Positions 18,566-37,329 of a DNA stretch of 42,166 nucleotides are shown here, in pieces. The position numbers were made by a program, and so were the translations under genes. Positions within the stretch are counted from its first letter, which is position 1, and every line of letters begins with the position of its first letter. The notes beneath the pieces were generated by a model. It was not told the origin of the DNA and ran no database searches. It saw nothing but the letters and a program-made list of their open reading frames with translations. Source of the DNA: Roseburia sp. (GTDB taxonomy: Bacteria; Bacillota; Clostridia; Lachnospirales; Lachnospiraceae); NCBI GenBank assembly GCA_023664685.1, contig JAMPFC010000017.1, positions 1 through 42,166 of the forward strand. The letters run 5' to 3'.

Positions 18566-18594
18566 TAGACATGTCACAAAAAGAATGATATACT
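18566..18594 (+). promoter_or_regulatory. Promoter of the nine-gene transport operon
   Basis: TAGACA (18566-18571) and TATACT (18589-18594) have a 17-bp spacer with an extended -10 (TGA before the hexamer). The leader is about 105 nt. Confidence 0.65.
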
Positions 18595-18635: not shown

Positions 18636-18675
18636 ATGCGTTTCGGGAAAAGGTTCTTTTTTGTGCGAAACGCAT
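18636..18675 (+). repeat. Leader hairpin of the transport operon
   Basis: ATGCGTTTCG (18636-18645) and CGAAACGCAT (18666-18675) pair perfectly around a 20-nt loop, in the untranslated leader and 32 bases before the start codon. Possible mRNA stabiliser or binding site; it is not followed by a T-run. Confidence 0.55.
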
Positions 18676-18707: not shown

Positions 18708-21700
18708 ATGTCAAAGTTGATGAAGAAAAAAGGCTTGCGGACATTCCTGATCGTGGTGGTAGTAATAGCAGCACTGGTCGCATTTTTCAAGATAAAGGGA
18801 TCTTCTGTAAGCGACAACTCCGACAAGTATGAAGGCGAGGATCTGGAGGCGGCTGAGCAGGATTATGGCCGTGAAGACCGGTATGCCCTGTACAAGACGG
18901 CACATGGGGATTCGATGCCAGAGGGCGAGGGAAATACTTACAAAGTAGATGTTTTTAATTATAAAAACAGCGATGGCGCTTCTAAGCGAAGCGGTGTAGG
19001 CCCGTCCGGTGATCAGACCGATGCTCTCCAGATCAAAGAAGAGGGGTATGCGGAGTTTGAATTTAATGTAAACACAGCGGGATATTATAATATTCTGGTA
19101 GAGTATTATCCGACGACGGATGAGGATGACCGCGGGGTTGACATTGAGACCAAAGTCGAGATCAATGGTTCCGTACCGTTTTCCGGAGCGGATGCGATCG
19201 CATTCCGGCGTGTGTACACCGATGAGGGCGAGATCAAGACCGACAATCAGGGAAATGAGATTCGTCCGACGCAGGTCGAGGATCCGAACCGTACTTGGAT
19301 CCGTTCTTATATGGAGGACTCCACAGGATACGAACTGGAACCGTACAAATTCTATTTTGAAAAGGGAAAGAATACGATCCGGCTCACCAGTGTCAATGAA
19401 AAACTTGTCCTGCGTAATCTGATCGTTCAAAACCAGAAAGCTACTCCGGACTATGAGGGATATGCAGCAGCAAATGCAGGGGCGGCAAATAACGTGGCTT
19501 CTGACTATCTCCAGAAGGTTCAGGGAGAGACCGCAGTGCGGCGTTCCTCACCATCTCTGTATGCGACATATGACAGAACATCAAGCGATACGGAGTATGA
19601 GGATAAAGACGGAAATGTAACACAGAGCAATACCGAGAAACAGGTTTTGGACATGACCGGCGGACAGAACTGGAAAGTGCCAAACGACTGGATTGAATGG
19701 GATATCGAGGTGCCGGAGGAAGGCGATTATATCATCGGCATCAAGGGTCGTCAGGGATACAACCGTGGATACATCGCCAACCGTTCCCTGTACATTGACG
19801 GTGAGATTCCATTCAAAGAGGTTTCCGAAATTCAGTTTACATACAGCAACGTGTGGGAGATGAAATGTCTCCAGAACGAGCAGGGAGAGGCGTACAAATT
19901 CCATTTAACAAAAGGAAAGCATACGATCCGCCTGAAAAACGCTCTGGGCCAGTTGGGAGATTATCTTCAGGAGTTGACGGACAGCGTGTTTAATATGAAC
20001 CAGATGTACCGCCAGATCCTTGTACTGACCGGAACAGAGCCGGATGAGTACCGTGACTACCAGATCGATACGGTATATCCGGAAGTCATGAAGGCAATGG
20101 ACATCGAGTCAAAACGACTTTACAAACTCGTAGATGAGGTGGTTGCTTATACGGGTGAGAAGGGCGGAGAGATTTCGGTTGCCCAGACACTGGCACGTCA
20201 GCTTGAGACATTTGTAGAAAGACCGGATAAGATTCCGGGGATGTTCTCGAACTTTAAAGAAAATATCAGTTCCCTTGGAACTTCGATCAATAACCTGAGC
20301 GGGGCTTCGATGGATATTGACTATATCGCACTTGCGGGAGCAGAAGATCAGCTTCCGGAAGTAAACGAAACCGGATTTAATAAACTGGTACACGAGTGTG
20401 TCCTGTTTGTTAATTCATTCCGTGCAGATTCCTCTGCACTTGGTAACGTATATGATTCCGACGATCCGGACGTGATTGATGTGTGGATCACAGCAGGGCG
20501 TGACCAGAGTAATATCTTAAAAAGCATGGTTGACCAGATGTTTACCCCGAAGTCGGGAATCAAAGTAAATGTCAAGCTGATCGATGCGGCGGCAGGAGCG
20601 AATACCGTTTCCTCCTCCACAGCGGCGATCAATGCCATGCTTCCGGCGGTTATCTCCGGATTCGGTCCGGATGTGGCGCTGAACATCACCCAGACAGAGC
20701 CGGTAAACTATGCACTGCGTAATGCGGTCGTGGATCTGAAAGCGAAGTTTGGAAATGAAGTGGATGAGGTGCTTTCCGAGTACAATCCGAGTTCGTATGA
20801 GGCTTACAAGTTCAATGGTGGACTGTTTGCCCTGCCGGAGACGGAGAACTACAACGTTATGTTCTACCGTACCGACATCATGGAAGAACTTGGAATCGAT
20901 GTAAGCACAGTAAATACATGGGACGATGTGATCAAGATCCTTCCGGTTCTGCAGAAGAACAATATGTCCTTTGCAGTTCCTTCGGTAGAGCGTAAGATCA
21001 ACAACATGTCGAACCCTGACTTAGCAAACTACTATGCACAGTTGTACCAGAGAGGCGGAACTCTTTACGATGAAGACGGAAAAGAGACGACGATCGACAG
21101 TACAGCCGGTATTGAGGCATTTGAGTTCTATACCAAACTCTTTACCAATTATAAACTGACAAAGCAGTACGACTTTGCGAACCGTTTCCGAAGCGGTGAG
21201 ATGCCGATCGGTGTAGCGGATTACAGTACATTTAATACACTTGCTGTCTTTGCTCCGGAGATCAAAGGTCTTTGGGATTTCGGACTGATGCCGGGCATGA
21301 AGCAGGAAGATGGAACGATCAACCGTGCAACCCAGTCATGGGGAACCTGTTCCATGATGCTTCGCGGAGCAGAAGAGCGTGGCAAGACAGATAAGGCATG
21401 GGAGTTCATGAAATGGTGGGCAAGTTCCGAGACACAGGCTACATACGCCAGCGAGTTAGAGGCGGTTATGGGTGCTGCGGCTCGTTATGCGACAGCAAAC
21501 AAGAACACCTTTGAGACACTGTCATGGAGCGGCAAGGAGTCAGAAGCCCTGAAAAACCAGTGGCAGTATGCATTTGGTTTACCGCAGGTTGCCGGCGGAT
21601 ATTATACAGAGCGCCATATTACGAATGCGATCCGTAAAGTGATCAATGACAACGAGGATCCGAGAGAGACCCTTCTGGATTATCGAAATGACATTGATGA

Positions 21701-21788
21701 CGAGCTTACGGAAAAACGACAGGAGTTTGGTCTGCCTACGAAAGAGGACGACGAGGGCGCAACAAATGAAAGCGAGAAAGGAGAGTAA
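18708..21788 (+). CDS. Large membrane-anchored extracellular binding protein with N-terminal carbohydrate-binding-like domains
   Basis: A 1026-residue protein. Residues about 11-30 are a hydrophobic anchor (TFLIVVVVIAALVAFF) without a lipobox Cys, so it is probably an uncleaved membrane anchor rather than a lipoprotein. Two beta-sandwich modules follow (about 55-245 and 310-440, with AGYYNILVEYYP and EGDYIIGIKGR type strands and KGKNTIRL/KGKHTIRL ends, resembling CBM6/35-like folds). A helical spacer comes next. From about residue 590 there is a type 1 sugar-binding fold (VDVWITAGRDQS, GPDVALN, FNGGLFALPETENYNVMFYRTDI, AWEFMKWWASSETQ). It is the first gene of the operon, with two permease genes after it. 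Capture of long xylan fragments is inferred from the neighbouring enzymes. Confidence 0.82.
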   Translation: MSKLMKKKGLRTFLIVVVVIAALVAFFKIKGSSVSDNSDKYEGEDLEAAEQDYGREDRYALYKTAHGDSMPEGEGNTYKVDVFNYKNSDGASKRSGVGPSGDQTDALQIKEEGYAEFEFNVNTAGYYNILVEYYPTTDEDDRGVDIETKVEINGSVPFSGADAIAFRRVYTDEGEIKTDNQGNEIRPTQVEDPNRTWIRSYMEDSTGYELEPYKFYFEKGKNTIRLTSVNEKLVLRNLIVQNQKATPDYEGYAAANAGAANNVASDYLQKVQGETAVRRSSPSLYATYDRTSSDTEYEDKDGNVTQSNTEKQVLDMTGGQNWKVPNDWIEWDIEVPEEGDYIIGIKGRQGYNRGYIANRSLYIDGEIPFKEVSEIQFTYSNVWEMKCLQNEQGEAYKFHLTKGKHTIRLKNALGQLGDYLQELTDSVFNMNQMYRQILVLTGTEPDEYRDYQIDTVYPEVMKAMDIESKRLYKLVDEVVAYTGEKGGEISVAQTLARQLETFVERPDKIPGMFSNFKENISSLGTSINNLSGASMDIDYIALAGAEDQLPEVNETGFNKLVHECVLFVNSFRADSSALGNVYDSDDPDVIDVWITAGRDQSNILKSMVDQMFTPKSGIKVNVKLIDAAAGANTVSSSTAAINAMLPAVISGFGPDVALNITQTEPVNYALRNAVVDLKAKFGNEVDEVLSEYNPSSYEAYKFNGGLFALPETENYNVMFYRTDIMEELGIDVSTVNTWDDVIKILPVLQKNNMSFAVPSVERKINNMSNPDLANYYAQLYQRGGTLYDEDGKETTIDSTAGIEAFEFYTKLFTNYKLTKQYDFANRFRSGEMPIGVADYSTFNTLAVFAPEIKGLWDFGLMPGMKQEDGTINRATQSWGTCSMMLRGAEERGKTDKAWEFMKWWASSETQATYASELEAVMGAAARYATANKNTFETLSWSGKESEALKNQWQYAFGLPQVAGGYYTERHITNAIRKVINDNEDPRETLLDYRNDIDDELTEKRQEFGLPTKEDDEGATNESEKGE

Positions 21789-21790
21789 GT

Positions 21791-22726
21791 ATGAATTTTC
21801 TGGGGAAATATATGCAGATTAAAAAGCGGAATGCCGGAATTGCTTGGAAAAAGGCAAAGGCTTCCAAGACATGTTATTTGTTTCTGCTTCCTTATGCGAT
21901 TTTCTTCCTAGCGTTTTACATTTTGCCGGTATTGATGTCGATCTTTTACAGCTTTACCTACTATAACGTTTTGGAACCTGCGCAGTTTATTGGTTTTGAC
22001 AACTACATCAATCTGTTTCTTTCAGATGACGTATTTTTGATCGCGGTGAAGAATACATTCCTTCTGGCAGCGATCACAGGCCCGCTTGGTTACGTTATGG
22101 CATTTCTCTTTGCATGGTTTATCAACGAGCTGCCAAGATACATACGTGCCTTCGCGGTTATGATCTTTTACGCACCGACGATTGCCGGTCAGGCATATCT
22201 TGTATGGTCGATCCTCTTTAGTGGAGACGCTTATGGATATGTCAATGGTTTCCTCATCAAGTTTGGTATCATCAGTGAGCCGATCCTATGGTTCACCGAT
22301 CCAAAGTATATGATGAATGTCGTGATCGTCGTCGTACTCTGGATGAGTCTTGGTAACGGATTCCTTTCCTTCGTAGCCGGACTTCAGGGTATTGATGCTT
22401 CACAGTTTGAGGCCGGATATGTGGACGGTGTGAAGAACCGTTGGCAGGAATTGTGGTACATTACACTTCCTAATATGAAACCGATGTTGCTGTTCGGTGC
22501 CGTTATGGCGATTACACAGTCCTTTGGTGTGGCTGACCAGACGATGGCGCTCTGTGGATATCCGAGTACGGATTATGCGGCGCGTACCGTTGTTACCCAC
22601 CTGATCGACTATGGTACAACGCGATTCGAGATGGGATATGCTTCCGCGATTGCGACCGTGCTGTTTTTGGTCATGATCTTGTGTAACAAAGCGATAAGGG
22701 CATTGCTCAACAAGGTTGGAACCTGA
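21791..22726 (+). CDS. Sugar ABC transporter permease (MalF/UgpA type), first pair
   Basis: A 311-residue permease with six predicted membrane spans. The cytoplasmic EAA-type loop (FEAGYVDGVKNRW followed by ITLPNMKP) contacts the ATPase. It starts two bases after the preceding stop. It forms a heterodimer with the next gene. No ATPase gene is present in the operon, as is normal for Firmicute oligosaccharide importers that share an MsmX-type ATPase. Confidence 0.92.
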   Translation: MNFLGKYMQIKKRNAGIAWKKAKASKTCYLFLLPYAIFFLAFYILPVLMSIFYSFTYYNVLEPAQFIGFDNYINLFLSDDVFLIAVKNTFLLAAITGPLGYVMAFLFAWFINELPRYIRAFAVMIFYAPTIAGQAYLVWSILFSGDAYGYVNGFLIKFGIISEPILWFTDPKYMMNVVIVVVLWMSLGNGFLSFVAGLQGIDASQFEAGYVDGVKNRWQELWYITLPNMKPMLLFGAVMAITQSFGVADQTMALCGYPSTDYAARTVVTHLIDYGTTRFEMGYASAIATVLFLVMILCNKAIRALLNKVGT

Positions 22727-22743
22727 TAGGAGGTAGTGTAGAG

Positions 22744-23607
22744 ATGAAAATTTTTAAACTCAAAAAAAGAAAACCAAACCGTTCGATAGGCGGTGATATT
22801 GGTATTTATATAATGTTGATCTTGTTTGGTTTATTCTTTGCGTTACCTCTTGTGTATAACGTAAGTAATGCGTTTAAACCATTGGATGAGATTTATCTCT
22901 ATCCGCCAAGATTTTTGGTGAAAAACCCGACTACAAACAACTTTCAGGATTTGCTTGTTGTCATGTCAAGTTCCTATGTACCATTTACCCGTTATGTGTT
23001 CAATACGGTGCTGACTACGTTCGTAGGTACATTCGGACACCTGATCGTCGGATCAATGGCAGCTTACGTACTGGCAAAATATGAGTTTCCGGGAAGCAAA
23101 GGCTTCTTCAGTATGTGCCAGACAGCCCTTATGTTCAATACATATGTGCTTCAGATCCCGACGTATCTGATCATGACAAAACTCGGATGGGTAGATACCT
23201 ATATGGCGCTGATCGTGCCGGCGTTTGCACTTCCGATGGGACTCTTCCTGATGAAGCAGTTTATGGAACAGATTCCGGATGCGCTCATTGAGGCGGCGAA
23301 GATCGATGGTGCAAAAGAGGGAAGAATCTTTTTGCAGATCGTTATGCCAAACGTAAAACCGGCATGGCTGACTGTGACGATCTTTTCCGTACAGGCATTG
23401 TGGAATGCAAAGGGACAGATTTATATTTATTCTGAGGAATACAAGATGCTGCCTTATGCACTGCAGCAGATCATGAGTGCCGGAGTTGCCCGTGCCGGAG
23501 TCGGTGGTGCAGCGACACTGGTTGTCATGCTTGTACCGGTTCTGATATTTGTTATGGCACAGAGTAACATTTTGGAGACAATGGCAAGCTCAGGTATTAA
23601 AGACTGA
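22744..23607 (+). CDS. Carbohydrate ABC transporter permease (MalG/UgpE type), first pair
   Basis: A 287-residue, six-span permease with a canonical EAA loop (EAAKIDGAKEGRIF followed by IVMPNVKPAW). It starts 17 bases after the MalF-type gene with GGAGGTAG upstream. Partner of the preceding permease; together they would serve the large anchored binding protein. Confidence 0.93.
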   Translation: MKIFKLKKRKPNRSIGGDIGIYIMLILFGLFFALPLVYNVSNAFKPLDEIYLYPPRFLVKNPTTNNFQDLLVVMSSSYVPFTRYVFNTVLTTFVGTFGHLIVGSMAAYVLAKYEFPGSKGFFSMCQTALMFNTYVLQIPTYLIMTKLGWVDTYMALIVPAFALPMGLFLMKQFMEQIPDALIEAAKIDGAKEGRIFLQIVMPNVKPAWLTVTIFSVQALWNAKGQIYIYSEEYKMLPYALQQIMSAGVARAGVGGAATLVVMLVPVLIFVMAQSNILETMASSGIKD

Positions 23608-23623
23608 TGAAGGAGGATGAGAA

Positions 23624-25117
23624 ATGAAAGTATGTAAGAAATTTACTTCCGTGTTGGTTCTGTTACTGACAGCATCCGTCCTTTTTGGAAGTGCAGATGT
23701 TGGGGCGACAAGCTCAGACGGCAATCACTATACATATACGTATGATTGCTGGGGATATGACAGGGAATCACCGGACGCATATTCGGTAACGCGTACGATC
23801 ACCGGTTCCGACTTTGAATGCGGAAACTTTGTGGATCCGCAGGGACTGTACGTACGCGGAAAAGATATGTACGTGGCGGATACAGGAAAGAACAGGATTG
23901 TCAAACTGACATATGACAATGACCGCTTTACGTTTATCAAGGAAGTAAACAGCTTTGACAACAACGGAACAGCGGATGCGCTCAGTAAGCCACAGGATGT
24001 TTTCGTGGATGATGACGGAAATATGTATATTGCCGACACCGGCAATATGAGGATCGTTCATCTGGATCCGAATGGAAAACTTGTGAAGATCATCACAAGG
24101 CCGGATGACGAGACGGTAGACCAGAAGACGGATTTTCTTCCGCAAAAACTCGTAGTTGACAGTTCAAACCGTATTTTTACACAGGTTCAGAACGTAAACA
24201 AAGGGTTTATGGAATTTGCAAGCGACGGTTCTTTTACCGGATTTGTAGGAGCGAGCAAGGTTACTTACAATTTTCTTCAGTATCTGTGGAAAATGATAGC
24301 GACAAAAGAGCAGAGAGAGCGTATGGAATTGTTCGTACCGACGGAGTACAGTAATCTCTGTCTTGATTCCGAAGGGTTCATTTATGCGACGATCGCGATC
24401 GCCGGGGATGAGGATACGAATCCTGAGACTGCCCAGCCGATCCGTAAGCTGAACGCAAAAGGAACGGATATCCTTGTTAGGAACGGATACGAGGAACCAT
24501 ATGGAGATCTTTGGTGGACAGGAAGCGGCGAGTTGAGCGGAGCGTCCAAACTGGTAGATATCACATGCCTTGACAACGACGTATACTATGCGCTTGACAA
24601 CACGAGAGGGCGTGTGTTCGCTTATGATTTCCAAGGAAATATGCTCTATGCTTTTGGTGGACATGGATATAAAGCAGGATACTTTATCAATCCTTGTGCG
24701 ATCGAAGATCTGGGCGATACGCTTGTGGTTATGGATGAGAATCTTGGTTCGATCACACAGTTTACTCTTACAGAGTATGGAAAATATATCAACGAAGGGC
24801 TTAGTGAATACAAACTCGGCCATTATGACGAATCGGCTGCGATCTGGCAGAAGGTTCTCAAATTGAATGGAAACTATGACCAAGCTTATATCGGAATCGG
24901 GCGTGCTTATATGAGACAGGATAAGTACACGGAGGCGATGGAATATTTTGAGTTAAAACTGGATAAGACGAATTATTCAAAAGCCTTTAAGTTCTGGCGT
25001 AAAGAGTGGTTTGAGGACAATATCGGAATCATCATTACGGTTCTGGTGATCCTTGTTGTCTTAGGATATGGGTATGGATTCATAAGAAAGATCAGAAAGG
25101 AGGTAGAGAAAGGATGA
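23624..25117 (+). CDS. Secreted NHL-repeat/TPR protein with a C-terminal membrane anchor
   Basis: A 497-residue protein with a signal peptide (residues 1-29, cleavage near GSADVGA-TS). Next come NHL-type beta-propeller repeats (about 50-380; units such as PQGLYVRGKDMYVADTGKNRIVKL and PQDVFVDDDGNMYIADTGNMRIVHL, each split here only for reading), then two TPR units (about 387-455, GLSEYKLGHYDESAAIW and YIGIGRAYMRQDKYTEAMEY). A C-terminal transmembrane helix (about 466-487) and a short basic tail complete it. The propeller and TPRs would face outside. NHL propellers bind proteins or ligands and TPRs mediate protein contacts, so a scaffold for the transporter is inferred. The stop overlaps the YIP1 gene by four bases. 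Confidence 0.75.
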   Translation: MKVCKKFTSVLVLLLTASVLFGSADVGATSSDGNHYTYTYDCWGYDRESPDAYSVTRTITGSDFECGNFVDPQGLYVRGKDMYVADTGKNRIVKLTYDNDRFTFIKEVNSFDNNGTADALSKPQDVFVDDDGNMYIADTGNMRIVHLDPNGKLVKIITRPDDETVDQKTDFLPQKLVVDSSNRIFTQVQNVNKGFMEFASDGSFTGFVGASKVTYNFLQYLWKMIATKEQRERMELFVPTEYSNLCLDSEGFIYATIAIAGDEDTNPETAQPIRKLNAKGTDILVRNGYEEPYGDLWWTGSGELSGASKLVDITCLDNDVYYALDNTRGRVFAYDFQGNMLYAFGGHGYKAGYFINPCAIEDLGDTLVVMDENLGSITQFTLTEYGKYINEGLSEYKLGHYDESAAIWQKVLKLNGNYDQAYIGIGRAYMRQDKYTEAMEYFELKLDKTNYSKAFKFWRKEWFEDNIGIIITVLVILVVLGYGYGFIRKIRKEVEKG

Positions 25118-25779
25118 GCATAAAAGAACGGCTTCTCGATAAAGAAAGATGGGCCTCCTATGGACGGTCTTTGCGATATTCCCTGCACTGTATTGTCCGC
25201 CCCTTTGATGGTTTCTGGGATCTGACCCATGAAAAAAGAGGATCGGTTGCTGCGGCGAATACGATCGTTATCCTTGTATTGATCACAAGACTGCTCCATC
25301 TTGGATTTACGAGTTTCATATTTTATCCGGTAAACTGGAGAACAGTAAACCTTCTGATGGAAATCCTGTCGTTTTTAGTGCCGTTTGTTGTCTACTGTGT
25401 GGCAAACTGGTGTCTTACGACTTTGTTTGAAGGAAAGGGTACTTTAAAGGATATTTATATGGGTACGGCATATGCCATGACCCCATATGTACTGATCCAG
25501 CTTCCCCTGATCCTTTTGAGTAATGTAGTGACGGAGGAGGAAGGTGCATTTTATACATACTTCGGATATTTTTCAATCATCTGGTGCGGCCTTCTGATCG
25601 TGGCATCCGTTATGATGATCCATGACTTCCTTTTGGGAAAAGCGTTTGCGTCGCTTGTTTTCTCGGCGGTCGGAATGTTGGTCATCGTGTTCCTGTTGGT
25701 ACTATTCTTTAGTTTGATCAGTGATGGTTTCTCTTACTTCTATTCTTTGTATAAAGAAATCATTTACCGGTTCTATTAA
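25114..25779 (+). CDS. YIP1-family integral membrane protein
   Basis: A 221-residue polytopic protein with about five hydrophobic segments (near residues 47-68, 78-100, 120-142, 155-178, 184-210). The N-terminal amphipathic part (RSLRYSLHCIVRPFDGFWDLTHEKRG) and the span pattern fit the bacterial Yip1 domain, whose function is unknown. It is translationally coupled to the NHL/TPR gene through an ATGA overlap, which suggests a stoichiometric complex. Its fixed position between transporter genes implies a role in assembly or in membrane placement of the uptake system; this is inference. Confidence 0.7.
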   Translation: MSIKERLLDKERWASYGRSLRYSLHCIVRPFDGFWDLTHEKRGSVAAANTIVILVLITRLLHLGFTSFIFYPVNWRTVNLLMEILSFLVPFVVYCVANWCLTTLFEGKGTLKDIYMGTAYAMTPYVLIQLPLILLSNVVTEEEGAFYTYFGYFSIIWCGLLIVASVMMIHDFLLGKAFASLVFSAVGMLVIVFLLVLFFSLISDGFSYFYSLYKEIIYRFY

Positions 25780-25802
25780 GTGGAAGGAGGGCAATGGTCA
25801 GA

Positions 25803-28379
25803 ATGAAAAAGAAATTTTATTTACTCTTAGTTGCTGCGATCGCTTCCATGTTTGCACTGGCAGGCTGTGGGGAATCTACCACAGGCTACAAAGAACTTAC
25901 TGCATATACGAATGAAGACAGTAAGACGGAAACGATCAGTAACAGCGCATTGGAGCTGACAGTCGACAAGGACTCGTCCACGTTCGTTTTGGAGGACAAA
26001 GCGCATGGAAAAGTTTATCGGTCGAATCCGACGCCGGAGGACATCGAAAAGTATGCAAATGCAAAAGGTCAGCTTAAAGATGTACTGAATGCAACGATGG
26101 TGCTTACGTATTCAAACAGTACGAATACCCAGAAGGAGATCAACAACTACAATGCTTCGATCGCCGATGGGAACTACCGGATCGAGAAAGTAAGCGAAAC
26201 AGAGATTGACGTTTATTATACGGTCGGTGATGTGGAAAAATTATTTGTTTGTCCGCTCGTGATCAAAGAATCCAAGATGAAAAAATATTTGGATCAGATG
26301 TCAGAGACAGACCAGAAAGTCGTAACACGTAATTATCTTCTCTACGATTACGAGGATTTGTCTGAGTCGGATGATGATACGGAATTGCAGCAGGCGCTTG
26401 CGCTGTTCCCGGATCTGAAGGATGAGCCGATTTATTACCTTAGTGAAAAGATCACGGACTCAAAGGCGAAAGGCCTTGAGGAGATTTTTGTAGAACTCGG
26501 CTACACCGAGGAAGAGAGGAATAAGGACAGCGAGTCATACAACGTATCGCGAAACAGCGGGAAACCGATTTTCGATATCGTTATCCAGTATATTTTAGAG
26601 GATGGGGAACTTGTTGTTAAGGTTCCGATGGAAAAGATCGAGTACAATCCGGATTATCCGATCGTCGAGCTTTCCGTACTTCCTTATATGGGAGCAGGAA
26701 GCTCACAGGATAAAGGATTTGTCCTTGTGCCGGATGGCATGGGTGGGATCATTAACTTCAACAATGGAAAAACAGGCCAGCAGACTTACCTGAGTGAGAT
26801 GTATGGCTGGGATTATGGAATCAGCCGGAAGATGGTAGTGGATGAGTCCAGATCCGCATTCCCGGTATTTGCAGTTTCCAATGAGACGGTTGGCGGCTCT
26901 TTCGTCTGCATCTCGGAAGAGGGAAGCTCCTACTCAAGCGTAAAAGCAGATATCGCCGGAAAAGAGAATGGTTACAATTACGGACGTTTTGTATATAAGA
27001 TGGTTCATGGCGAGGATATGGATATTTCCAAAAAATCCGATACGACAGTCCGTTCGTATGAGGAGAGCCTCCCGAAAGAGAACCTGACACAGCGCTACAT
27101 ATTCTCAGACAAAATGGATTATGTAAGCATGGCACAGGATTACCGGGATTACATGATGAAACGGTATCCGGAGCTGACGAAGAAAGAAGATGCGACAGTT
27201 CCGATGGCAGTCGAGATGATCGGTGCGGTGGATAACGTAGAACATATTCTCGGATATCCGGTCACACGTTCCCAAGCGCTTACGACATATTCTCAGGCGG
27301 AGGATATCCTGAAGCAACTGAAAGCGGCGGGTGTGGAGAGCCTGAGTGCAAAATACACAGGCTGGTTCAATACCGGTGTAAACCAGAAATCAGCGGCGAA
27401 GGTAAAACTGGTCGGAAGACTTGGTGGCAAATCAGATCTTAAGAGCCTTGCGGCGTATGCCAGCGGTACAGGCGGTCTGGATCTGTTCCTCAATGGAAAG
27501 TTCATGTATGTCATGAAGGATAAGCTGTTTGACGGGTTTGGCGTAAACAGACATGCGGCGAAGTTTGTAAGCCGTGAAATCTGTGAGCTGTATACACTGG
27601 ATCCGATCGTATACCAGACGAACGAAGAGTATGTTCTTTGTGATCTGTATTACCTTGTAAAACCGTCATATACGATCAAAAATATCGACAGTTATCTTTC
27701 CAGTATTTCTTCATACGGTGTGACAAACATCGGTTTTGAGGATATCGGAAATACACTGGCAGGAGATTACAATCCAAAAGACAGGGTGTCAAGAGAAGCA
27801 TCCATGAATATGCAGGCAGATAAGATGAAGTCACTGAAAGAGAGTGGAAACAAGGTGATGACGACGTCTGGTAACCAGTATGCGGTTCCGTATTCGGATT
27901 ATATAACGGATATGGATATCGATACAAGGGCAGTCAATATCATTGATGAGTCCGTACCATTTTACCAGATCGCTCTCCACGGTCTTGTGAACTACTCAGG
28001 AAGTGCGATCAATCTTTCCGAAGACCAGACAGACATGATCCTCAAATCTGCTGAGACCGGAGCTGGCTTGTATTACACATTTATCAATGCAGCGACGAGC
28101 GTGCTTCAGGATGGCGAGTACACCCAGTACTATGCATGTAACTTTACGGACTGGAAAGATTCCGCAGTGGAACTTTATAATGACTTTAATTCAAAGCTCG
28201 GCGATGTGTATAACCAGTACATCGTTGGACATGAAAAACTTGCAAATGGCGTTTACAAAACGACATATGAAAATGGAAAAGCTGTTGTCGTAAATTATAA
28301 TTATGCAGATTATGATTATGAAGGGACGACAGTTCCACAGAGAGACTTTGTGACACTTAAGACAGGAGGTGGACAATAA
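25803..28379 (+). CDS. DUF5696-type large lipoprotein
   Basis: About 858 residues. An in-frame ATG lies at 25794, but the ATG at 25803 gives a standard signal (MKKKFYLLLV... LAGC, lipid-modified Cys22); the GGAGG spacing does not decide between them. Residues about 40-330 are beta-rich (ELTVDKDSSTFVLEDKAHGK and similar). Residues about 440-760 have the look of a (beta/alpha)8 barrel (AAGVESLSAKYTGW, LDLFLNGKF, SYGVTNIGFEDIGN, GNKVMTTSGNQYA). A short C-terminal beta domain ends VVNYNYADYDYEG and TVPQRDFV. From memory this corresponds to the DUF5696 family found beside YIP1 and sugar-transport genes in other Firmicutes. No catalytic activity is known; an enzymatic or glycan-binding barrel on the cell surface is possible. 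Confidence 0.72.
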   Translation: MKKKFYLLLVAAIASMFALAGCGESTTGYKELTAYTNEDSKTETISNSALELTVDKDSSTFVLEDKAHGKVYRSNPTPEDIEKYANAKGQLKDVLNATMVLTYSNSTNTQKEINNYNASIADGNYRIEKVSETEIDVYYTVGDVEKLFVCPLVIKESKMKKYLDQMSETDQKVVTRNYLLYDYEDLSESDDDTELQQALALFPDLKDEPIYYLSEKITDSKAKGLEEIFVELGYTEEERNKDSESYNVSRNSGKPIFDIVIQYILEDGELVVKVPMEKIEYNPDYPIVELSVLPYMGAGSSQDKGFVLVPDGMGGIINFNNGKTGQQTYLSEMYGWDYGISRKMVVDESRSAFPVFAVSNETVGGSFVCISEEGSSYSSVKADIAGKENGYNYGRFVYKMVHGEDMDISKKSDTTVRSYEESLPKENLTQRYIFSDKMDYVSMAQDYRDYMMKRYPELTKKEDATVPMAVEMIGAVDNVEHILGYPVTRSQALTTYSQAEDILKQLKAAGVESLSAKYTGWFNTGVNQKSAAKVKLVGRLGGKSDLKSLAAYASGTGGLDLFLNGKFMYVMKDKLFDGFGVNRHAAKFVSREICELYTLDPIVYQTNEEYVLCDLYYLVKPSYTIKNIDSYLSSISSYGVTNIGFEDIGNTLAGDYNPKDRVSREASMNMQADKMKSLKESGNKVMTTSGNQYAVPYSDYITDMDIDTRAVNIIDESVPFYQIALHGLVNYSGSAINLSEDQTDMILKSAETGAGLYYTFINAATSVLQDGEYTQYYACNFTDWKDSAVELYNDFNSKLGDVYNQYIVGHEKLANGVYKTTYENGKAVVVNYNYADYDYEGTTVPQRDFVTLKTGGGQ

Positions 28380-29294
28380 ATGAAACGACAAAGAAAGAAA
28401 AAGACACTTGCGTTTAAGAATGCAGTAGCAGGATACTTGTTTATTGCTCCATTTATCATTGGTTTTATCCTGTTTATGGTTGTTCCGTTGGGACAGTCGC
28501 TTATGATGACCCTTAATGAAGTAAAACCGATGTCAGATGGTACCGGGTTCAGCATGGAGTGGGTCGGGATCAAAAACTTCAAAGATGCATTTATGGTGGA
28601 TGCAGATTTTGTACCGGCTCTGGTCGGTGAGCTTGTCAAGATGGTTGTCAATACTCCGGCGACCCTGATCTTCAGTTTCTTTATTGCACTGTTACTGAAT
28701 CAGAACTTTAAAGGAAGAGGCGCAGTGCGTGCGATCTTCTTCCTGCCGGTTATTCTTTCTTCCGGTGTGATCGTGGGTCTTGAGTACAACAATGCACTTT
28801 TAAATGATATGAAGGATGTGATTTCCGAAACCTCCAACGACGCCAGTGTGACAGCGGTGTTAGAGGAGATACTGGTCACCTCGGGCGGAGGCCCGATGGC
28901 AAGGATGTTCCAGTATGTATTTGATATCATCAATAAAGTATATGATATTGCGATCGCATCTGGTATCCAGATCATTATGTTCCTGTCGGCTTTGCAGACG
29001 ATTTCACCAAGTATGTTTGAGGCTGCAAAGATCGAGGGCTGTACTGCATGGGAGAGTTTCTGGAAGATTACCTTCCCTATGGTCAGTTCGATGATACTCG
29101 TAAACGTAATATATACCGTAATCGACTTCTTCTTAAAGACAGATAATACGGTCATGACGAAGATTTCCGAAGAGGTAGGAAAGATGAATTATGGATTTAG
29201 TTCGGCGATATCATGGGTATATTTCCTATGCGTTATTGTAATACTTGGTATTGTTTCGCTGATTATATCTAAGAGGGTGTATTATTATGAATAA
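28380..29294 (+). CDS. Sugar ABC transporter permease (MalF type), second pair
   Basis: A 304-residue permease with six spans and an EAA loop (FEAAKIEGCTAWESFW followed by ITFPMVSS). The ATG follows the DUF5696 stop codon directly and its ribosome binding site (AGGAGGTGG) lies inside the preceding gene. It overlaps the next permease by eight bases. It is not a close copy of the first MalF-type permease in this operon, so two distinct transporters are encoded. Confidence 0.92.
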   Translation: MKRQRKKKTLAFKNAVAGYLFIAPFIIGFILFMVVPLGQSLMMTLNEVKPMSDGTGFSMEWVGIKNFKDAFMVDADFVPALVGELVKMVVNTPATLIFSFFIALLLNQNFKGRGAVRAIFFLPVILSSGVIVGLEYNNALLNDMKDVISETSNDASVTAVLEEILVTSGGGPMARMFQYVFDIINKVYDIAIASGIQIIMFLSALQTISPSMFEAAKIEGCTAWESFWKITFPMVSSMILVNVIYTVIDFFLKTDNTVMTKISEEVGKMNYGFSSAISWVYFLCVIVILGIVSLIISKRVYYYE

Positions 29295-30285
29295 AAAGAA
29301 TAAATTTAAAACCTTTATCGAACGAAACAAAAAATCCAACGGGTACTTATTGAGGAAAGTTTCTTTTAATGTTTTTTACAAGATTGTACGCGCAGTATTG
29401 TTGTTTGGATTGTGTTTCATGATTCTGCAGCCGCTGTTGAATAAAGTTTCATTGAGTTTCATGGAAGAAAAAGACTTATATGATTCTACGATCGTGGCCA
29501 TACCGCGTCACTTTACAACGAACAATTATGAGGTTGCAGCCTACCTCATGAAATACTGGCAGGCACTTTTCAACACAGCATTGATCTCACTGCTTGTCAG
29601 TGTTCTCCAGATCATTTCCTGTGTGTTGGTAGGATATGGTTTCGCAAGATACAAATTCCCGTTAAAGGGACTGTGGTTTGGTGCGGTGATCCTTGTGATC
29701 CTCGTTCCACCGTCCACGATCCAGTCGTCCCTTTACTTGAATTTCTGTTACTTTGATATTTTTGGGATATTTGCCCTATTCAATGGCGGAAAGCCACTGA
29801 ACCTTTTGAACTCCCTGACACCGTATGCACTGATGTGTCTGGGATGTATGGGACTTAAGAGCGGTCTGTATATTTACATGATCCGCCAGTTCTTCCGCGG
29901 TATCCCGAAAGAGCTTGAGGAAGCAGCTTATGTAGACGGATGCGGCAAGGTAGCGACATTTGTAAGGATCATGCTGCCGGATGCCAAACCGATCATCACT
30001 TCCTGTTTCCTGTTTGCCTACGTATGGCAGTGGACAGACTCCTTCTATTCCAATATGTTCCTGAGTTCAGACTTTGTGCTGCTCTCGACAAAACTTTCGA
30101 ATATCGCAGGAGCCTTGGACAGTTATCTGGATGTGCGTGGGATTGCGAAGAAAGCGACGACCGCTTATTCACAGGGTATGATCGCAACGGGTACGCTCAT
30201 GGTCATCATTCCGCTGATCATTTTGTATCTGTTTGCCCAGAAAGGCTTTGTAGAAAGTCTGAGCCAGTCTGGTATTAAGATGTAG
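29287..30285 (+). CDS. Carbohydrate ABC transporter permease (MalG type), second pair
   Basis: A 332-residue permease with six spans and an EAA loop (LEEAAYVDGCGKVATF followed by IMLPDAKPI). It has an extended N-terminus of about 35 polar and basic residues before the first span. It overlaps the partner permease by eight bases. It most likely works with the lipoprotein binding protein encoded next. Confidence 0.92.
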   Translation: MNKKNKFKTFIERNKKSNGYLLRKVSFNVFYKIVRAVLLFGLCFMILQPLLNKVSLSFMEEKDLYDSTIVAIPRHFTTNNYEVAAYLMKYWQALFNTALISLLVSVLQIISCVLVGYGFARYKFPLKGLWFGAVILVILVPPSTIQSSLYLNFCYFDIFGIFALFNGGKPLNLLNSLTPYALMCLGCMGLKSGLYIYMIRQFFRGIPKELEEAAYVDGCGKVATFVRIMLPDAKPIITSCFLFAYVWQWTDSFYSNMFLSSDFVLLSTKLSNIAGALDSYLDVRGIAKKATTAYSQGMIATGTLMVIIPLIILYLFAQKGFVESLSQSGIKM

Positions 30286-30353
30286 TTATGATTCTGCCCG
30301 GTTCTGGGGAGAATATAACAATAAAATTATTATTAAGGAGGTAGAAAACAAAT

Positions 30354-31781
30354 ATGAAAGCAAACATGAAAAAATTGCTTGCAATGGGTCTCACAGTAGC
30401 ACTTGCAGTTGGCTGTCTGACCGGATGCGGTGATGACAAATCAGCAGATAGTTCGGATTCGTCAAGCAGTTCGGATTCTTCAGATGCTTCGTCAACTAGT
30501 AAGAAAACTTTTGATGACCTCGGTGGTATAACAGTGACGATCGGTGACTGGTACACAACGGAGGAGACAGGAGATTCCCCATATGCGAAAGCTACAGAGG
30601 ACTATCGGAAAGAGATCATGGATAAGTACAACTTCAAGATTGAACGTGGAACCAAGTATGCTTATGCAGATATGCAGGAGACATATGTAAATGGTGTCAT
30701 GTCGAACAATCCAAGCTGTAGTTTGTTCTATCTGTATCAGGAAATGGTTTCCGCACCGCTTATGAAAGGACTTATGTATGACCTTTCAAGTCTGCCGGAG
30801 TTTGATTTCACAGAAGAAAAATGGAATCCGACAGTAGTAGAACTTATGAGCATCGGAAATGGAATCTGGGGAATGAACACAGAGGCAGAGCCTCGTGGCG
30901 GTGTATTCTTCAACAAACGTATGCTGAAAGAAGCAGGTATTGATGAGGATGAGCCATATGATCTTCAGGCAGATGGAAAATGGACATGGGATAAGTTTGA
31001 AGAGTACTGTAAAAAGCTTACGGTTGACTCCGATGGTGATGGTAAGACTGACCAGTATGCACTGGCAAGCTTCTCCAAATACTATCTGCCGATGTGTGCA
31101 GCAAACAACAATGCGACATTCGTAGACCGTGACAAAGATGGCAACTATACAAACGCTACGGGAACAAAAGAGTTCTTAGAGGCTATGAACTGGGGTATGA
31201 GCCTTTACAACAAGGGCTACATCATGCCGAAACCGGAAGGAGCAAACTGGGATTGGTATAAAGCTGCATTCCGTGACGGAGAGGTTGCAATGCAGACTGC
31301 TGAGGTTTATGAGATCAGCGCCTTCTCTACAATGGAAGACAACTGGGGATTTGTTATGTTCCCATACAATCAGGACAACAAGGAATCGACAAACAAGACA
31401 ACGCCAAACGACAATATTGTTGTTATGCCTAGCTGCTTTAGCCCGGAGGATGCAGAGAAGATCGCATTCGCATATGATCTTTACACAGAGCCGACTCCAG
31501 ACTTTGATGCGGAGGATGCATGGAAAGAGACATATTATGAGCAGTTCAAGGATGAGCGTGCAGTAGACGAAACACTCGTAATGATGAAAGAAGAAGAGCA
31601 CAAGCAGACATCTTATCTGCCGCTGATCGGCGAGCTTGATTACGGTGATTTCTGTTATGCAGTATATGCAGGAGCTACGACACCGGCGAAGAAGATCGAG
31701 GCAATTTCTTCAAGCTGGGATAGTATCATCAGTGATATGAATAAGAAGTACGCAAACTTTGCAGCTTCTCATTCAAAGTAA
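30354..31781 (+). CDS. Extracellular solute-binding lipoprotein (sugar type)
   Basis: A 475-residue family 1 binding protein. The signal peptide ends in lipobox LTGC (Cys25), followed by a Ser/Asp-rich linker (residues 29-48) typical of lipoproteins tethered to a Gram-positive membrane. The mature part has the usual two-lobe features (GITVTIGDWYT, NGIWGMNTEAEPRGGVFFNKRML, DGKWTWDKFEEYCKKL). GGAGG lies at 30336-30340. A 68-base gap separates it from the permease gene. It is the last gene before the terminator. A short-xylooligosaccharide or aldouronate ligand is inferred from the downstream enzymes. Confidence 0.92.
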   Translation: MKANMKKLLAMGLTVALAVGCLTGCGDDKSADSSDSSSSSDSSDASSTSKKTFDDLGGITVTIGDWYTTEETGDSPYAKATEDYRKEIMDKYNFKIERGTKYAYADMQETYVNGVMSNNPSCSLFYLYQEMVSAPLMKGLMYDLSSLPEFDFTEEKWNPTVVELMSIGNGIWGMNTEAEPRGGVFFNKRMLKEAGIDEDEPYDLQADGKWTWDKFEEYCKKLTVDSDGDGKTDQYALASFSKYYLPMCAANNNATFVDRDKDGNYTNATGTKEFLEAMNWGMSLYNKGYIMPKPEGANWDWYKAAFRDGEVAMQTAEVYEISAFSTMEDNWGFVMFPYNQDNKESTNKTTPNDNIVVMPSCFSPEDAEKIAFAYDLYTEPTPDFDAEDAWKETYYEQFKDERAVDETLVMMKEEEHKQTSYLPLIGELDYGDFCYAVYAGATTPAKKIEAISSSWDSIISDMNKKYANFAASHSK

Positions 31782-31860: not shown

Positions 31861-31987
31861 AAAATATCGTTTATGAAGCAGGAGAGTTATGGATATTTGT
31901 TTTATCAATATGAAGAATGAAAAATAAGAGATGTTATGGTCTCTTTAAAATAGAGCGATGTTAAAATTTAGCAGACAGGAGGAAGAG

Positions 31988-34156
31988 ATGGGCGAGACAA
32001 AAAAGTACCTTGATGAATCTTTGTCCTTTGAGGAGAGGGCAGAGGCACTTGTGTCAGAGATGACGCTTGAGGAGAAGGTGTACCAGACCCTTCACGGAGC
32101 GCCGGCGATCGAGCGGTTGGACGTGAAAGCTTATAACTATTGGAACGAGGCGCTTCACGGCGTGGCAAGAGCCGGAACCGCTACGGTATTTCCCCAAGCA
32201 ATCGGACTGGCGGCGGCTTTTGATGAAGATTTTATGGAGAAGATCGCGATCGCTGTCTCTGACGAGGGGCGTGCCAAATTCAATGCCCAGCAAAAATTTG
32301 GTGACTATGATATTTACAAAGGACTGACCTTCTGGTCTCCGAATGTAAATATATTCCGCGATCCCAGATGGGGCCGCGGGCATGAGACGTTTGGAGAGGA
32401 TCCGTACCTTACTTCCCGGCTCGGTGTGAGATTTATCGAAGGGATGCAGGGAAACGATGACAAATATATGAAAGTGGCGGCGTGTGCCAAGCATTTTGCA
32501 GTGCATTCCGGGCCGGAGGACGAGAGGCACAGCTTCAATGCAATCTCCTCGGAACAGGATTTGCGGGAGACGTATCTTCCGGCATTCAAGGCATGTGTGA
32601 AAGAGGCGGGTGTGGAGGTCGTGATGGGCGCCTACAACCGCACAAACGATGAGCCATGCTGCGGCAGTAAGCGGCTGCTTGAGGATATCCTGCGGGGCGA
32701 GTGGGGCTTTCAGGGGCATGTGACGTCGGATTGTTGGGCGATCAAAGATTTTCATGAGTTCCATATGGTGACGTCTACACCTGTAGAAAGTGTTTCCCTT
32801 GCGATGAACCGCGGCTGCGATTTGAACTGCGGAAATATTTACGGAAATCTGCTCAAGGCGGTAAAAGATGGTCTTGTGACAGAAGAGACGATCAGCCGCG
32901 CAGTAACGAGATTGTTTACAACACGTATGAAGCTTGGGCTGTTTGATCCGCAGGAAAAAGTGCCATATAACGTGATCGACTACCGTGTGGTAGATTGTGA
33001 GGAACATAAGAGATTAAATGAGGAGGCTGCAAGGAAGAGTGCGGTGCTTTTGAAAAATGAAAAGAACCTGCTTCCGTTAGACTTGTCTGGCATAAAGACG
33101 ATCGGAGTAGTCGGCCCGAATGCGAACAATCGAAAAGCCCTCGTAGGAAATTATGAGGGGACAGCGTCAGAGTACATAACGATCCTTGAGGGAATCCAGA
33201 GATTTGTGGGAGAAGATGTACGGGTTATGTATTCCGAGGGATGCCATTTGTGCAAAGACCGGATACAGGGCTTGTCGCAGGGGAATGACCGGATGTCCGA
33301 AGTCCGTGCTGTGGCAGAGGCGTCGGATGTGATCATTGCCTGTCTGGGATTAGATGCCAGTCTCGAGGGAGAAGAGGGCGATGAGGGAAATGAGTTTGCC
33401 AGTGGGGATAAGCCGAACTTGGAGCTTCCGGGGCTTCAAGAAGAGGTTTTGAAAGAACTCGTAAAATCCGGAAAGCCTGTTGTTCTCGTACTTCTTTCCG
33501 GAAGTGCGCTTGCGGTTCCGTATGCGGATGAGCATGTTCCTGCCATTCTACAAGGGTGGTATCCGGGAGCAAGAGGCGGAAAGGCGATCGCAGAGCTTCT
33601 TTTTGGCAGACATTGTCCGGAGGGGAAACTCCCGGTTACGTTCTACCGCACAACAGAAGAATTGCCGGATTTTAAAGATTATTCGATGAAAAACCGCACA
33701 TACCGCTATATGAAGCAGGAGGCGCTATATCCGTTTGGGTATGGCCTGAGTTATACGAAATTTGCACTCAGTGGCACGGAACTTTCCTCGGATTCGATCG
33801 AGGAGGGAGGAAGCATTGCCATCCGGACTTCGATCCGAAATACCGGAGAGACAGCAGGCTCGGAGACGATACAGGTATACATCCGTGCCTGTGTGGAGGA
33901 TGCGCCGAATTATCAGTTGAAGGCGCTGAAAAAGGTGTCGCTGAAACCCGGTGAGACAAAGGAAGTTACACTGGCGCTAAGGGCAGAGGACTTTGCACTG
34001 TACAACAAAGAAGGCGTTAAGATTTTAAATGCATGCGAGCATGAGGTTTACGTGGGGACGTTCCAGCCGGACAGAAGAAGTGTGAAGCTGACCGGAACAG
34101 AGCCGGAAAAATATATCGTGAAACATACCGGTGAGGCTGTGGTCATACCGGAATAA
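31988..34156 (+). CDS. Glycoside hydrolase family 3 (beta-xylosidase/beta-glucosidase)
   Basis: About 722 residues. The frame is open from 31958, but AGGAGGA (31977-31983) selects the ATG at 31988. Order of domains: GH3 barrel (1-310) with WNEALHGVARAG, RDPRWGRGHETFGEDPY, CAKHFAVHSG and the nucleophile Asp248 in VTSDCW; the alpha/beta sandwich domain (about 345-560) with GPNANNRKALVGNY; and a C-terminal fibronectin-III-like domain (about 600-700). No signal peptide is present, so it is cytoplasmic. SDCWAI and ALHGV are typical of the xylosidase branch of GH3. It is expected to degrade imported xylooligosaccharides. It heads the group with GH67, uxuA and uxuB, with short gaps between the genes. 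Confidence 0.92.
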   Translation: MGETKKYLDESLSFEERAEALVSEMTLEEKVYQTLHGAPAIERLDVKAYNYWNEALHGVARAGTATVFPQAIGLAAAFDEDFMEKIAIAVSDEGRAKFNAQQKFGDYDIYKGLTFWSPNVNIFRDPRWGRGHETFGEDPYLTSRLGVRFIEGMQGNDDKYMKVAACAKHFAVHSGPEDERHSFNAISSEQDLRETYLPAFKACVKEAGVEVVMGAYNRTNDEPCCGSKRLLEDILRGEWGFQGHVTSDCWAIKDFHEFHMVTSTPVESVSLAMNRGCDLNCGNIYGNLLKAVKDGLVTEETISRAVTRLFTTRMKLGLFDPQEKVPYNVIDYRVVDCEEHKRLNEEAARKSAVLLKNEKNLLPLDLSGIKTIGVVGPNANNRKALVGNYEGTASEYITILEGIQRFVGEDVRVMYSEGCHLCKDRIQGLSQGNDRMSEVRAVAEASDVIIACLGLDASLEGEEGDEGNEFASGDKPNLELPGLQEEVLKELVKSGKPVVLVLLSGSALAVPYADEHVPAILQGWYPGARGGKAIAELLFGRHCPEGKLPVTFYRTTEELPDFKDYSMKNRTYRYMKQEALYPFGYGLSYTKFALSGTELSSDSIEEGGSIAIRTSIRNTGETAGSETIQVYIRACVEDAPNYQLKALKKVSLKPGETKEVTLALRAEDFALYNKEGVKILNACEHEVYVGTFQPDRRSVKLTGTEPEKYIVKHTGEAVVIPE

Positions 34157-36245: not shown

Positions 36246-37316
36246 ATGGAGATGACATTGAGATGGTATGGCGAGGGAAACGATAGTGTAACGCTTGAGC
36301 AGATTCGCCAGATACCGGGTGTAAGCGGAGTGATCACAGCGCTTCATGATATCCCTGCCGGCGAGGCGTGGACATATGAGGATGTGATGAAGAGAAAGAA
36401 GGAGGTCGAGGCAAAAGGGCTGAAACTGGTCGGGATCGAGAGCATCAACGTGCATGAAGATATCAAGATCGGGCTTCCTTCGAGAGACGAGCTGATCGCC
36501 AATTATAATAAGTCGTTAGAGGCGGTCGGAAAGGCGGATATCCACCTTGTCTGCTACAATTTTATGCCGGTATTTGACTGGACGAGGACAGATCTTGCAA
36601 TGCCTCTTTCCGATGGCTCGACAGCACTTGCTTATGATTCTTCGATCATCGATGGGATCGATGCCAGTGAGATGTTCGACCGGATCGAGAAGGCCAGTGG
36701 CGGTTTTGTGATGCCCGGCTGGGAACCGAACCGGAGAGATGAGATCATGGATCTTTTTGAAAAATATAAGGATGTAACTGCCGATAAGCTCAGGGAAAAT
36801 TTCAAATATTTCCTTGATGGCATCATGCCGACCTGTGAGAAATATAAGATCAAGATGGCAGTCCATCCGGATGACCCAGCTTGGGATGTGTTCGGTCTGC
36901 CGCGCATCGTCACATGTGAGGAGGATCTTTTAAAGATCGCTTCCCTCAATGACAGCATCTACAATGGATTTACGTTCTGCACAGGCTCGCTTGGCAGCAA
37001 TTTGAATAACGACCTTCCGAACATCATCCGCAATCCGAAGATCGCAGAGCGGATTCATTTTGCACACATCCGGAACATCAAATATGAAAATGACCAGTTG
37101 TTCCACGAAGTATCCCACCTGTCTTCGGATGGAAATTTTGATATGTATGAGATCGTGAAAGCGCTGATCGATATGGGCTTTGACGGTGTGATCCGGCCTG
37201 ACCACGGACGTATGATCTGGGATGAGCAGGCGAGACCGGGCTACGGGCTTTATGACCGGGCGCTCGGCGTAGCATATTTAAATGGCCTGTGGGAAGCAAT
37301 CAAAAAGAATCAGTAA
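36246..37316 (+). CDS. uxuA: Mannonate dehydratase
   Basis: A 356-residue enzyme that dehydrates D-mannonate to 2-keto-3-deoxygluconate. Recognised from MTLRWYGEGNDSVTLEQIRQ at the start (20 residues), GVITALHDIPAGE, the metal-site blocks MAVHPDDPAWDVFGLPRI, TFCTGSLGS and FAHIRN, and RPDHGRMIW near the end. It follows the alpha-glucuronidase by 38 bases; AAAGGA lies about 11 bases before the ATG. It works directly after UxuB in glucuronate catabolism. Confidence 0.95.
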   Translation: MEMTLRWYGEGNDSVTLEQIRQIPGVSGVITALHDIPAGEAWTYEDVMKRKKEVEAKGLKLVGIESINVHEDIKIGLPSRDELIANYNKSLEAVGKADIHLVCYNFMPVFDWTRTDLAMPLSDGSTALAYDSSIIDGIDASEMFDRIEKASGGFVMPGWEPNRRDEIMDLFEKYKDVTADKLRENFKYFLDGIMPTCEKYKIKMAVHPDDPAWDVFGLPRIVTCEEDLLKIASLNDSIYNGFTFCTGSLGSNLNNDLPNIIRNPKIAERIHFAHIRNIKYENDQLFHEVSHLSSDGNFDMYEIVKALIDMGFDGVIRPDHGRMIWDEQARPGYGLYDRALGVAYLNGLWEAIKKNQ

Positions 37317-37329
37317 AGAGGGGGAAATT

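Follow-up and report, generated by a model that had tools for sequence, protein, structure and literature searches.

A conserved nine-gene sugar-uptake cassette places two ABC importers around NHL/TPR, YIP1 and DUF5696 proteins

In Bacteroidota, loci for polysaccharide use are found and read via SusCD. Sus-type systems combine a constant capture and uptake core with exchangeable enzymes and occur in several copies per genome. To our knowledge, no SusCD-like locus marker exists in Bacillota. Gram-positive polysaccharide utilisation loci (gpPULs) are defined by importer genes that lie beside matching glycoside hydrolases. CUT1 importers that take up oligosaccharides and share one ATPase (MsmK) comprise binding proteins, EAA-loop permease pairs and an ATPase encoded elsewhere. 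In Anaerocellum (Caldicellulosiruptor) bescii, the sharing of MsmK is backed by genetics (PMC8579813, PMC12838199). The xylan locus of this organism, which includes AxoFGE and XloEFG, spans 12 locus numbers that correspond to seven enzymes and two importers in the available part of its description (PMC8579813). A lead from one relative (L117) suggested that this locus might be the cassette described below, but the match was rejected because its 12 locus numbers, as given in that part, are already filled.

The DNA analysed here, hereafter the window, is a stretch of 42,166 nucleotides from Roseburia sp. An earlier note on it had described a nine-gene operon, whose coordinates and gene families are borne out: nine same-strand genes, all with ATG starts, occupy positions 18708-31781 (+), belong to the Pfam families described, and form a conserved sugar-uptake cassette. 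The intergenic gaps from gene 1 to gene 9 are 2, 17, 16, -4, 14, 0, -8 and 68 bases. A GGAG-type ribosome-binding stretch can be read closely ahead of eight of the nine genes, gene 8 having AGAGGG only. Because the same order was found again in more than 100 loci, the arrangement is not attributable to chance.

Upstream of gene 1, a possible promoter (TAGACA-17-TATACT with TG ahead of the second hexamer; 18566..18594, +) is a weak consensus match, since the region holds 25 promoter-like sites where 25.5 would be expected; promoter and terminator scans of the region gave chance-level results. A perfect 10-bp inverted repeat (18636..18675, unstranded; arms 18636-18645 and 18666-18675) is a possible operator or hairpin, and a similar repeat was present in one (L129) of 12 relatives checked. 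No local transcriptional regulator, a further feature of gpPULs, was recognised in a scan of the ORFs from 13262 to 39726, a set from which small overlapping ORFs were left out and in which ORFs 14203 and 15446 had no Pfam match.

The importer genes lie at both ends of the cassette. Gene 1 (18708..21788, +) encodes 1026 amino acids, with about 570 residues preceding a C-terminal solute-binding domain (SBP_bac_1, Pfam). This preceding part holds a GH115_C-like module, a second copy of it recognised by profile comparison (probability 99.6, 94 columns) and a linker, and hydropathy marked an N-terminal membrane segment, which has no lipobox cysteine. The product is an anchored fusion in which two carbohydrate-binding-like modules in tandem precede the solute-binding protein (CBM-CBM-SBP), a feature absent from the earlier note. 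The second binding protein, SBPb (gene 9; 30354..31781, +), likewise matches SBP_bac_1 and carries the lipobox L-T-G-C at residues 22-25. Between them are the permeases P1A (gene 2; 21791..22726, +), P1B (gene 3; 22744..23607, +), P2A (gene 7; 28380..29294, +) and P2B (gene 8; 29287..30285, +). Genes 2, 3 and 8 match BPD_transp_1 above the Pfam cut-off; gene 7 falls below it (23.0 vs 26.4 bits) and matches P1A in profile comparison (probability 99.9). ATPase-coupling loops are kept in all four permeases, the EAA-loop glutamate being present in P1A, P1B and P2A from 114 of 114 loci and in P2B from 110 of 114. No ATPase gene was found among the nine genes (Pfam). The assembly holds one OB_MalK-type ATPase, on contig C9 outside the window, and a second TOBE_2 match on contig C62 adjoins two other permeases. 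As in CUT1 importers, SBP_bac_1 binding proteins and EAA-loop permease pairs are thus accompanied by a MalK/MsmX-type ATPase elsewhere in the genome. The cassette differs from the MsmK-dependent systems in that two permease pairs in one operon flank three extra envelope proteins (the trio), and in the fusion of the first binding protein to two carbohydrate-binding-like modules.

The window cassette adjoins a glucuronoxylan gene set assigned by Pfam. On one side lies a divergent GH43 gene with a GH43_C2 domain (beta-xylosidase-type; 16851..18416, -); on the other lie genes for GH3 (31958..34156, +), the alpha-glucuronidase family GH67 (34189..36207, +) and the mannonate dehydratase UxuA (36246..37316, +), none of the four products having a signal segment. 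A mannitol-dehydrogenase family oxidoreductase (37282..38943, +) is, judging from this context, probably UxuB-like. Importer genes and matching glycoside hydrolases therefore share one locus, as in gpPULs, whose definition is not known to include the trio. The earlier note had linked the trio to glucuronoxylan, a specificity that does not hold among relatives: their cassettes adjoin xylan, mannan, arabinan, pectin or fructan enzymes, and several copies with different enzymes occur per genome, so that exchangeable enzymes surround a constant uptake core. A recognised enzyme class was absent nearby in 82 of 169 loci. In 65 of 68 cases, a DUF5696 protein and its nearest neighbour shared their companion-enzyme class, against a mean of 27.8 and a maximum of 43 in label shuffles, which ignore relatedness; this clustering is partly due to descent.

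The cassette is widespread. In one sample of 200 genomes from the window's family, strong DUF5696 matches, the NHL/TPR protein and CBM-SBP fell in the same 43 genomes, so that within this sample no unit occurs separately from the others. Across the phylum, a DUF5696 protein was counted in 37 of 398 sampled genomes. The collection was scanned with a closer DUF5696 alignment, the broad one being too divergent, and neighbourhoods were counted in six frames, since ORF-based counts suffered from antisense ORFs. Gene order was counted in loci found through DUF5696, a set that cannot reveal cassettes lacking it; the NHL/TPR and CBM-SBP searches can do so, but only within the 200 genomes. The upstream part is complete in 134 of 141 DUF5696-found loci, and two permease pairs are present in 126 of the 127 with enough flank. 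The earlier proposal that the trio belongs with sugar importers is upheld. A trio mostly without sugar transporters, the outcome named beforehand as contradicting that proposal, is not what the loci contain: where the DNA reaches far enough downstream, a permease pair follows DUF5696 in 146 of 147. The first permease pair is the least variable component, and DUF5696 and SBPb are the most variable, SBPb above all. Across 114 loci, the matrices of pairwise identity for the nine components are correlated with one another (r 0.84-0.97), as expected of any operon inherited as a block.

Gene 6 (25794..28379, +) encodes the DUF5696 protein (628 bits, Pfam). A simple hydropathy scan found a single N-terminal segment, and the lipobox L-A-G-C can be read at residues 22-25, a pattern present in only 59 of 165 DUF5696 proteins. 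A single-sequence search of solved structures returned one chance-level match (E 0.85). Profile searching did better: the DUF5696 profile matches GH129-type structures and, against a GH129-like homologue group, aligns over 474 columns (probability 99.9, E 3.5e-33). By profile comparison, DUF5696 is thus assigned as a homologue of GH129 glycosidases such as NagBb (PDB 5WZN), to which GH101 is related. Unlike these enzymes, it has an extra N-terminal part, is encoded in an importer operon, and does not keep two sets of residues. The first is the Asp/Glu pair at NagBb chain positions 435 and 478, which we take to be catalytic; reading along the DUF5696-GH129 alignment places the acid/base column at 691. 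Among 164 proteins (166 rows minus two duplicate loci), D650 is found in 96, E691 in 25 and both together in one, or in six if one position of slip is allowed. An acid of either kind stands at 691 in 36 proteins, five of which also have D650. The window protein keeps D650 and has T691 in place of the acid. The second set is the His and Asp that precede a conserved GW and are changed to Ala in 5wzq, presumably a metal site; the window protein has K520 and T522, and across the 166 rows the seven commonest residues include no H at position 520 and no D at position 522. DUF5696 therefore seems to be a relative of sugar-cutting enzymes that has lost the catalytic pair, which makes the partial processing of fragments suggested in the earlier note unlikely. 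Catalysis may nevertheless persist in altered form, since many DUF5696 proteins retain one carboxylate.

These features are, somewhat more probably than not, explained by a reusable oligosaccharide-capture and import core, with a shared MsmX-type ATPase, DUF5696 as a non-catalytic glycan-binding subunit and NHL/TPR-YIP1 as a scaffold. Two CUT1-type importers, CBM-CBM-SBP with P1A/P1B and SBPb with P2A/P2B, would both be powered by one housekeeping ATPase encoded elsewhere. The tandem modules of gene 1 would bind glycan, and DUF5696, a tethered GH129-type protein without normal catalysis, would hold a glycan fragment; DUF5696 and SBPb would set substrate preference. NHL/TPR-YIP1 would keep DUF5696 and both importers together at the membrane in a physical complex. 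In the window, methyl-glucuronoxylan fragments would be imported and then broken down inside the cell by the leaderless GH67, GH3, GH43 and UxuA. Alternatively, the cassette could encode two ordinary importers that work independently on different fragments of a single polysaccharide, with DUF5696 as an active glycosidase at the surface, descended from GH129 but using altered catalytic residues, and NHL/TPR-YIP1 only accompanying them. The GH129 kinship, the frequent D650 and an acid at position 691 in 10 of 11 arabinan-type loci are consistent with such activity, and loci L116, L119 and L121 are rearranged into trio plus P2 and CBM-SBP plus P1, as separable units would be. However, the near absence of the GH129 pair argues against an active enzyme and the joint presence of all parts in 43 genomes against independence, and we consider this explanation unlikely.

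The proposed scaffold is encoded by genes 4 and 5. Gene 4 (23624..25117, +) combines an NHL beta-propeller with TPR (Pfam), between an N-terminal signal segment and a C-terminal membrane segment, and gene 5 (25114..25779, +) encodes an integral membrane protein of the YIP1 family (40.9 bits) with five membrane segments, both by simple hydropathy scan. Their overlap, claimed earlier, is real: exactly 4 bases are shared here and, among the 117 loci that keep the two genes separate, in 51; in 115 of these 117 the gap is at most 30. In six-frame counts, the two are merged into one gene in 37 of 167 DUF5696-found loci. Protein or ligand binding is common for NHL and TPR domains and would also suit a sensor, whose propeller would detect ligand or transporter occupancy while the membrane part does the signalling, or an assembly factor, in which TPR aids permease assembly, with DUF5696 as a ligand-binding partner. 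AraC-, LacI- or histidine-kinase-type genes adjoin a number of relatives, and in L067 a kinase immediately precedes YIP1. These regulators are of varied kinds, however, no regulator was identified next to the cassette in the window, and Pfam found no signalling domain in NHL/TPR or YIP1, which leaves either role quite improbable. A co-regulated bundle without common mechanism, its order reflecting only regulation and block transfer, would fit the operon-like spacing but is very improbable, given the NHL-YIP1 fusions and the persistence of order and content despite changes of companion enzymes and a DUF5696 identity to the window protein of no more than 18-38 percent in 23 relatives.

The favoured capture and import core resembles Sus-type systems in its constant core, exchangeable enzymes and multiple copies, but has ABC permeases in place of a TonB-dependent channel and no SusD. 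Neither SusC nor SusD was found among the nine proteins (Pfam), and a SusF_SusE match to gene 1 is below cut-off (E 0.0055). The earlier description as a Sus-type analogue consequently holds as an analogy of logic and fails as ancestry. More tentatively, and with considerable doubt, all nine products might form one membrane machine, in which NHL/TPR-YIP1 bridges two ABC transporter cores and a dead glycosidase and the two-module binding protein serve as a common glycan dock. Such a machine would be a monoderm counterpart of SusCD, its presence marking a polysaccharide locus and its DUF5696 type predicting the substrate. The name DUF5696 was not found in the literature searched. If the cassette is a shared uptake core, DUF5696 and a group of bacterial YIP1 proteins would gain a function, and the cassette would serve as a marker from which the substrates of gut and rumen Lachnospiraceae could be predicted.

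Evidence is strong that the nine-gene cassette forms a genetic unit, and weak that it works as a machine. As the earlier note had claimed, the nine genes run on a single strand (plus, 18708-31781), with intergenic distances of -8 to 68 bases, and a Pfam search recovers the families assigned there to all nine products. P2A, from the second permease pair, scores under the Pfam cut-off, yet it has a profile match to P1A of the first pair and contains the EAA loop. Gene 1, previously described as a binding protein, is one in its C-terminal part; further upstream, it encodes an N-terminal membrane segment, two GH115_C-like modules, which form a repeat (probability 99.6 over 94 columns in a profile comparison), and a linker. 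None of the nine proteins scores above the threshold of an NCBIfam family. The longest gap in the cassette (30286-30353) lies directly 5' of the gene for the last binding protein, SBPb. The same gap is the only long one in relatives (median 96 bases over 115 loci), which suggests separate control of SBPb and would fit its higher expression. Elsewhere in the window, two ORFs (375 and 358 aa; 14203-16522) downstream of an ABC ATPase gene lack a Pfam match, and a tRNA-family match lies on the minus strand at 16648-16730, in the interval that separates the upstream ABC block from GH43.

Gene order was counted by six-frame profile search over 169 different loci. The family search supplied 70 of them and the phylum sample 20, taken from 20 of its 36 further genomes with a strong match; named public contigs gave 78 (the top 80 among 501 relatives, minus two duplicates), and the window makes up the total. 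Four GH129-like loci were excluded. Where 7 kb or more of upstream sequence is available (141 loci), gene 1, a permease pair, NHL/TPR, and YIP1 stand ahead of DUF5696 in 134. A permease pair follows DUF5696 in 146 of 147 loci with at least 4.5 kb downstream, which bears out the proposed association of the NHL/TPR-YIP1-DUF5696 trio with permeases; a binding protein is also found there in 123. Two pairs are present in 126 of 127 DUF5696-selected loci with both flanks (exception, L108). Among the seven upstream exceptions, gene 1 and the first pair (P1) are positioned after the second (P2) in L116, L119, and L121, P1B is displaced in L081, and gene 1 is absent from the stretch read in L108 and L113. 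The remaining one is L067, where response-regulator and histidine-kinase genes replace NHL directly 5' of YIP1-DUF5696-P2A-P2B, possibly through an assembly error. NHL and YIP1 form a single reading frame in 37/167 loci; of the 117 loci with two separate genes, 51 show an overlap of exactly four bases. In one mannan-type cassette (L035, 13001-15088), a gene for a 696-aa protein with CBM65 stretches separates P2B from SBPb, and several further loci carry genes of about 590-710 aa at this position.

Because all 169 loci were selected via DUF5696, they cannot reveal cassettes lacking it; searches with NHL/TPR and gene 1 could do so within 200 genomes of the window's family. PF18952 gives any match in 79 of these genomes and one over the Pfam cut-off in 59. 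Strong DUF5696 matches (E 5.4e-55 or better) occur at 73 places in 43 genomes and are nearly all full length, genome G016 having two fragments only; the other matches are weaker or partial. Four of these, read together with their flanking DNA (L101-L104), prove to be DUF5696/GH129-type proteins that lack the cassette, although sugar-importer-type genes lie near three of them. Profile searches with the NHL/TPR and gene 1 alignments each match 43/200 genomes, and these are the same 43 that carry strong DUF5696 matches. At 69 of the 73 DUF5696 places, an NHL match is found no more than 4 kb away on the same strand, and DUF5696 stands beside 69 of the 71 NHL places. Two of the four misses, L047 and L052, do have an adjoining NHL gene and were probably overlooked because at most five candidates per genome were scored; the others are L067, with a histidine-kinase fragment there, and the DUF5696 fragment of G016. 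In the phylum-wide sample of 398 genomes, PF18952 has any match in 46 and a strong one in 37, the window's own genome counted. Named relatives with cassettes include Eubacterium xylanophilum, Lachnotalea glycerini, [Clostridium] aerotolerans, and Anaerocolumna. Cassettes also occur on five records labelled Treponema or Spirochaetia (L157, L183, L189, L199, and L201); in such diderms, as the labels have them, the trio would sit in the periplasm instead of at the surface.

The P1 permease pair is the constant part of the cassette, and DUF5696 and SBPb are the changing part. Across 114 loci with full canonical order, mean pairwise identity is 0.58 for P1A, 0.55 for P1B, 0.46 for P2A and P2B, 0.42 for gene 1, 0.39 for NHL and YIP1, 0.33 for DUF5696, and 0.28 for SBPb.

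Companion enzymes also vary. Around the window cassette lie genes for GH43, GH3, GH67, UxuA, and an oxidoreductase of the mannitol-dehydrogenase family; a signal segment is absent from the first four, which fits intracellular breakdown of imported aldouronates. Companions at other loci include GH10, GH43, GH51, GH130, GH26, GH36, and GH106, and at least one recognised enzyme class lies near 87 of the 169 loci and none near 82. Genome G173 carries six copies, each with its own neighbours (GH26 and GH130; GH43; GH28; two GH32-type genes; GH43 and GH2; GH43 and arabinose isomerase), GH43 being common to three; gene-cluster labels derive from one representative each, so individual members may be mislabelled. 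A single clear class could be given to 68 DUF5696 proteins (38 xylan, 19 mannan, and 11 arabinan type); in 65 of them, the nearest neighbour at no more than 60 percent identity has that class too, against a mean of 27.8 and a maximum of 43 in label shuffles, which ignore relatedness.

DUF5696 itself is related to GH129. A 50-sequence profile matches the 3,6-anhydro-D-galactosidase 5opq (E 7.8e-13), which we take to belong to GH129, its relatives 8rzg and 8rzk, and NagBb (5wzq, E 0.02). The comparison group comprised 15 GH129-like homologues found via the Pfam DUF5696 model, 13 of them of 626-715 aa; its L104 member matches NagBb 5wzn at E 2.4e-233. All 15 keep D447 and E490, which align to 5wzn chain positions 435 and 478, presumably the nucleophile and acid/base. 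Profile comparison aligns 166 cassette DUF5696 proteins with this group (probability 99.9, E 3.5e-33, 474 columns), placing the catalytic pair at D650 and residue 691, with a slip of one position possible. Among 164 cassette proteins from distinct loci, D650 occurs in 96 and E691 in 25, and both together in one, or six when the slip is allowed; any acid occupies 691 in 36, five of them alongside D650. The window protein has D650 and T691. At position 650, D stands in 50 of the 57 proteins of xylan and mannan type, and G in all 11 of arabinan type. Since the catalytic pair coincides in only 1/164, cassette DUF5696 is best read from its sequence as a relative of glycosidases that has taken on a binding role, and it may instead have altered catalysis.

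In the proposed mechanism, DUF5696 and the gene 1 modules would act as a binding dock, which NHL/TPR-YIP1 would hold in place, and one common ATPase would drive both importers. The shared ATPase is proposed because the coupling loop is kept in all four permeases, none of the nine genes encodes an ATPase, a single OB_MalK-type ATPase is encoded in the window's assembly (131 contigs, 98.75 percent complete), and the genetics of A. bescii points to a single MsmK for its CUT1 importers (PMC8579813, PMC12838199).

Each component belongs to a known family. The literature searched, mostly without subscription papers and preprints, yielded no description of the assembly and no use of the name DUF5696, and for YIP1 combined with importers, xylan, or NHL it returned nothing or apparently unrelated titles. 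In family genomes, close GH129 relatives (L103, L104, and L208-L218) pass the cut-off of the Pfam DUF5696 model; the Pfam GH129 model detects them poorly, in 2/5 such genomes among 60 searched. Annotating by DUF5696 alone confuses the cassette protein with probable enzymes.
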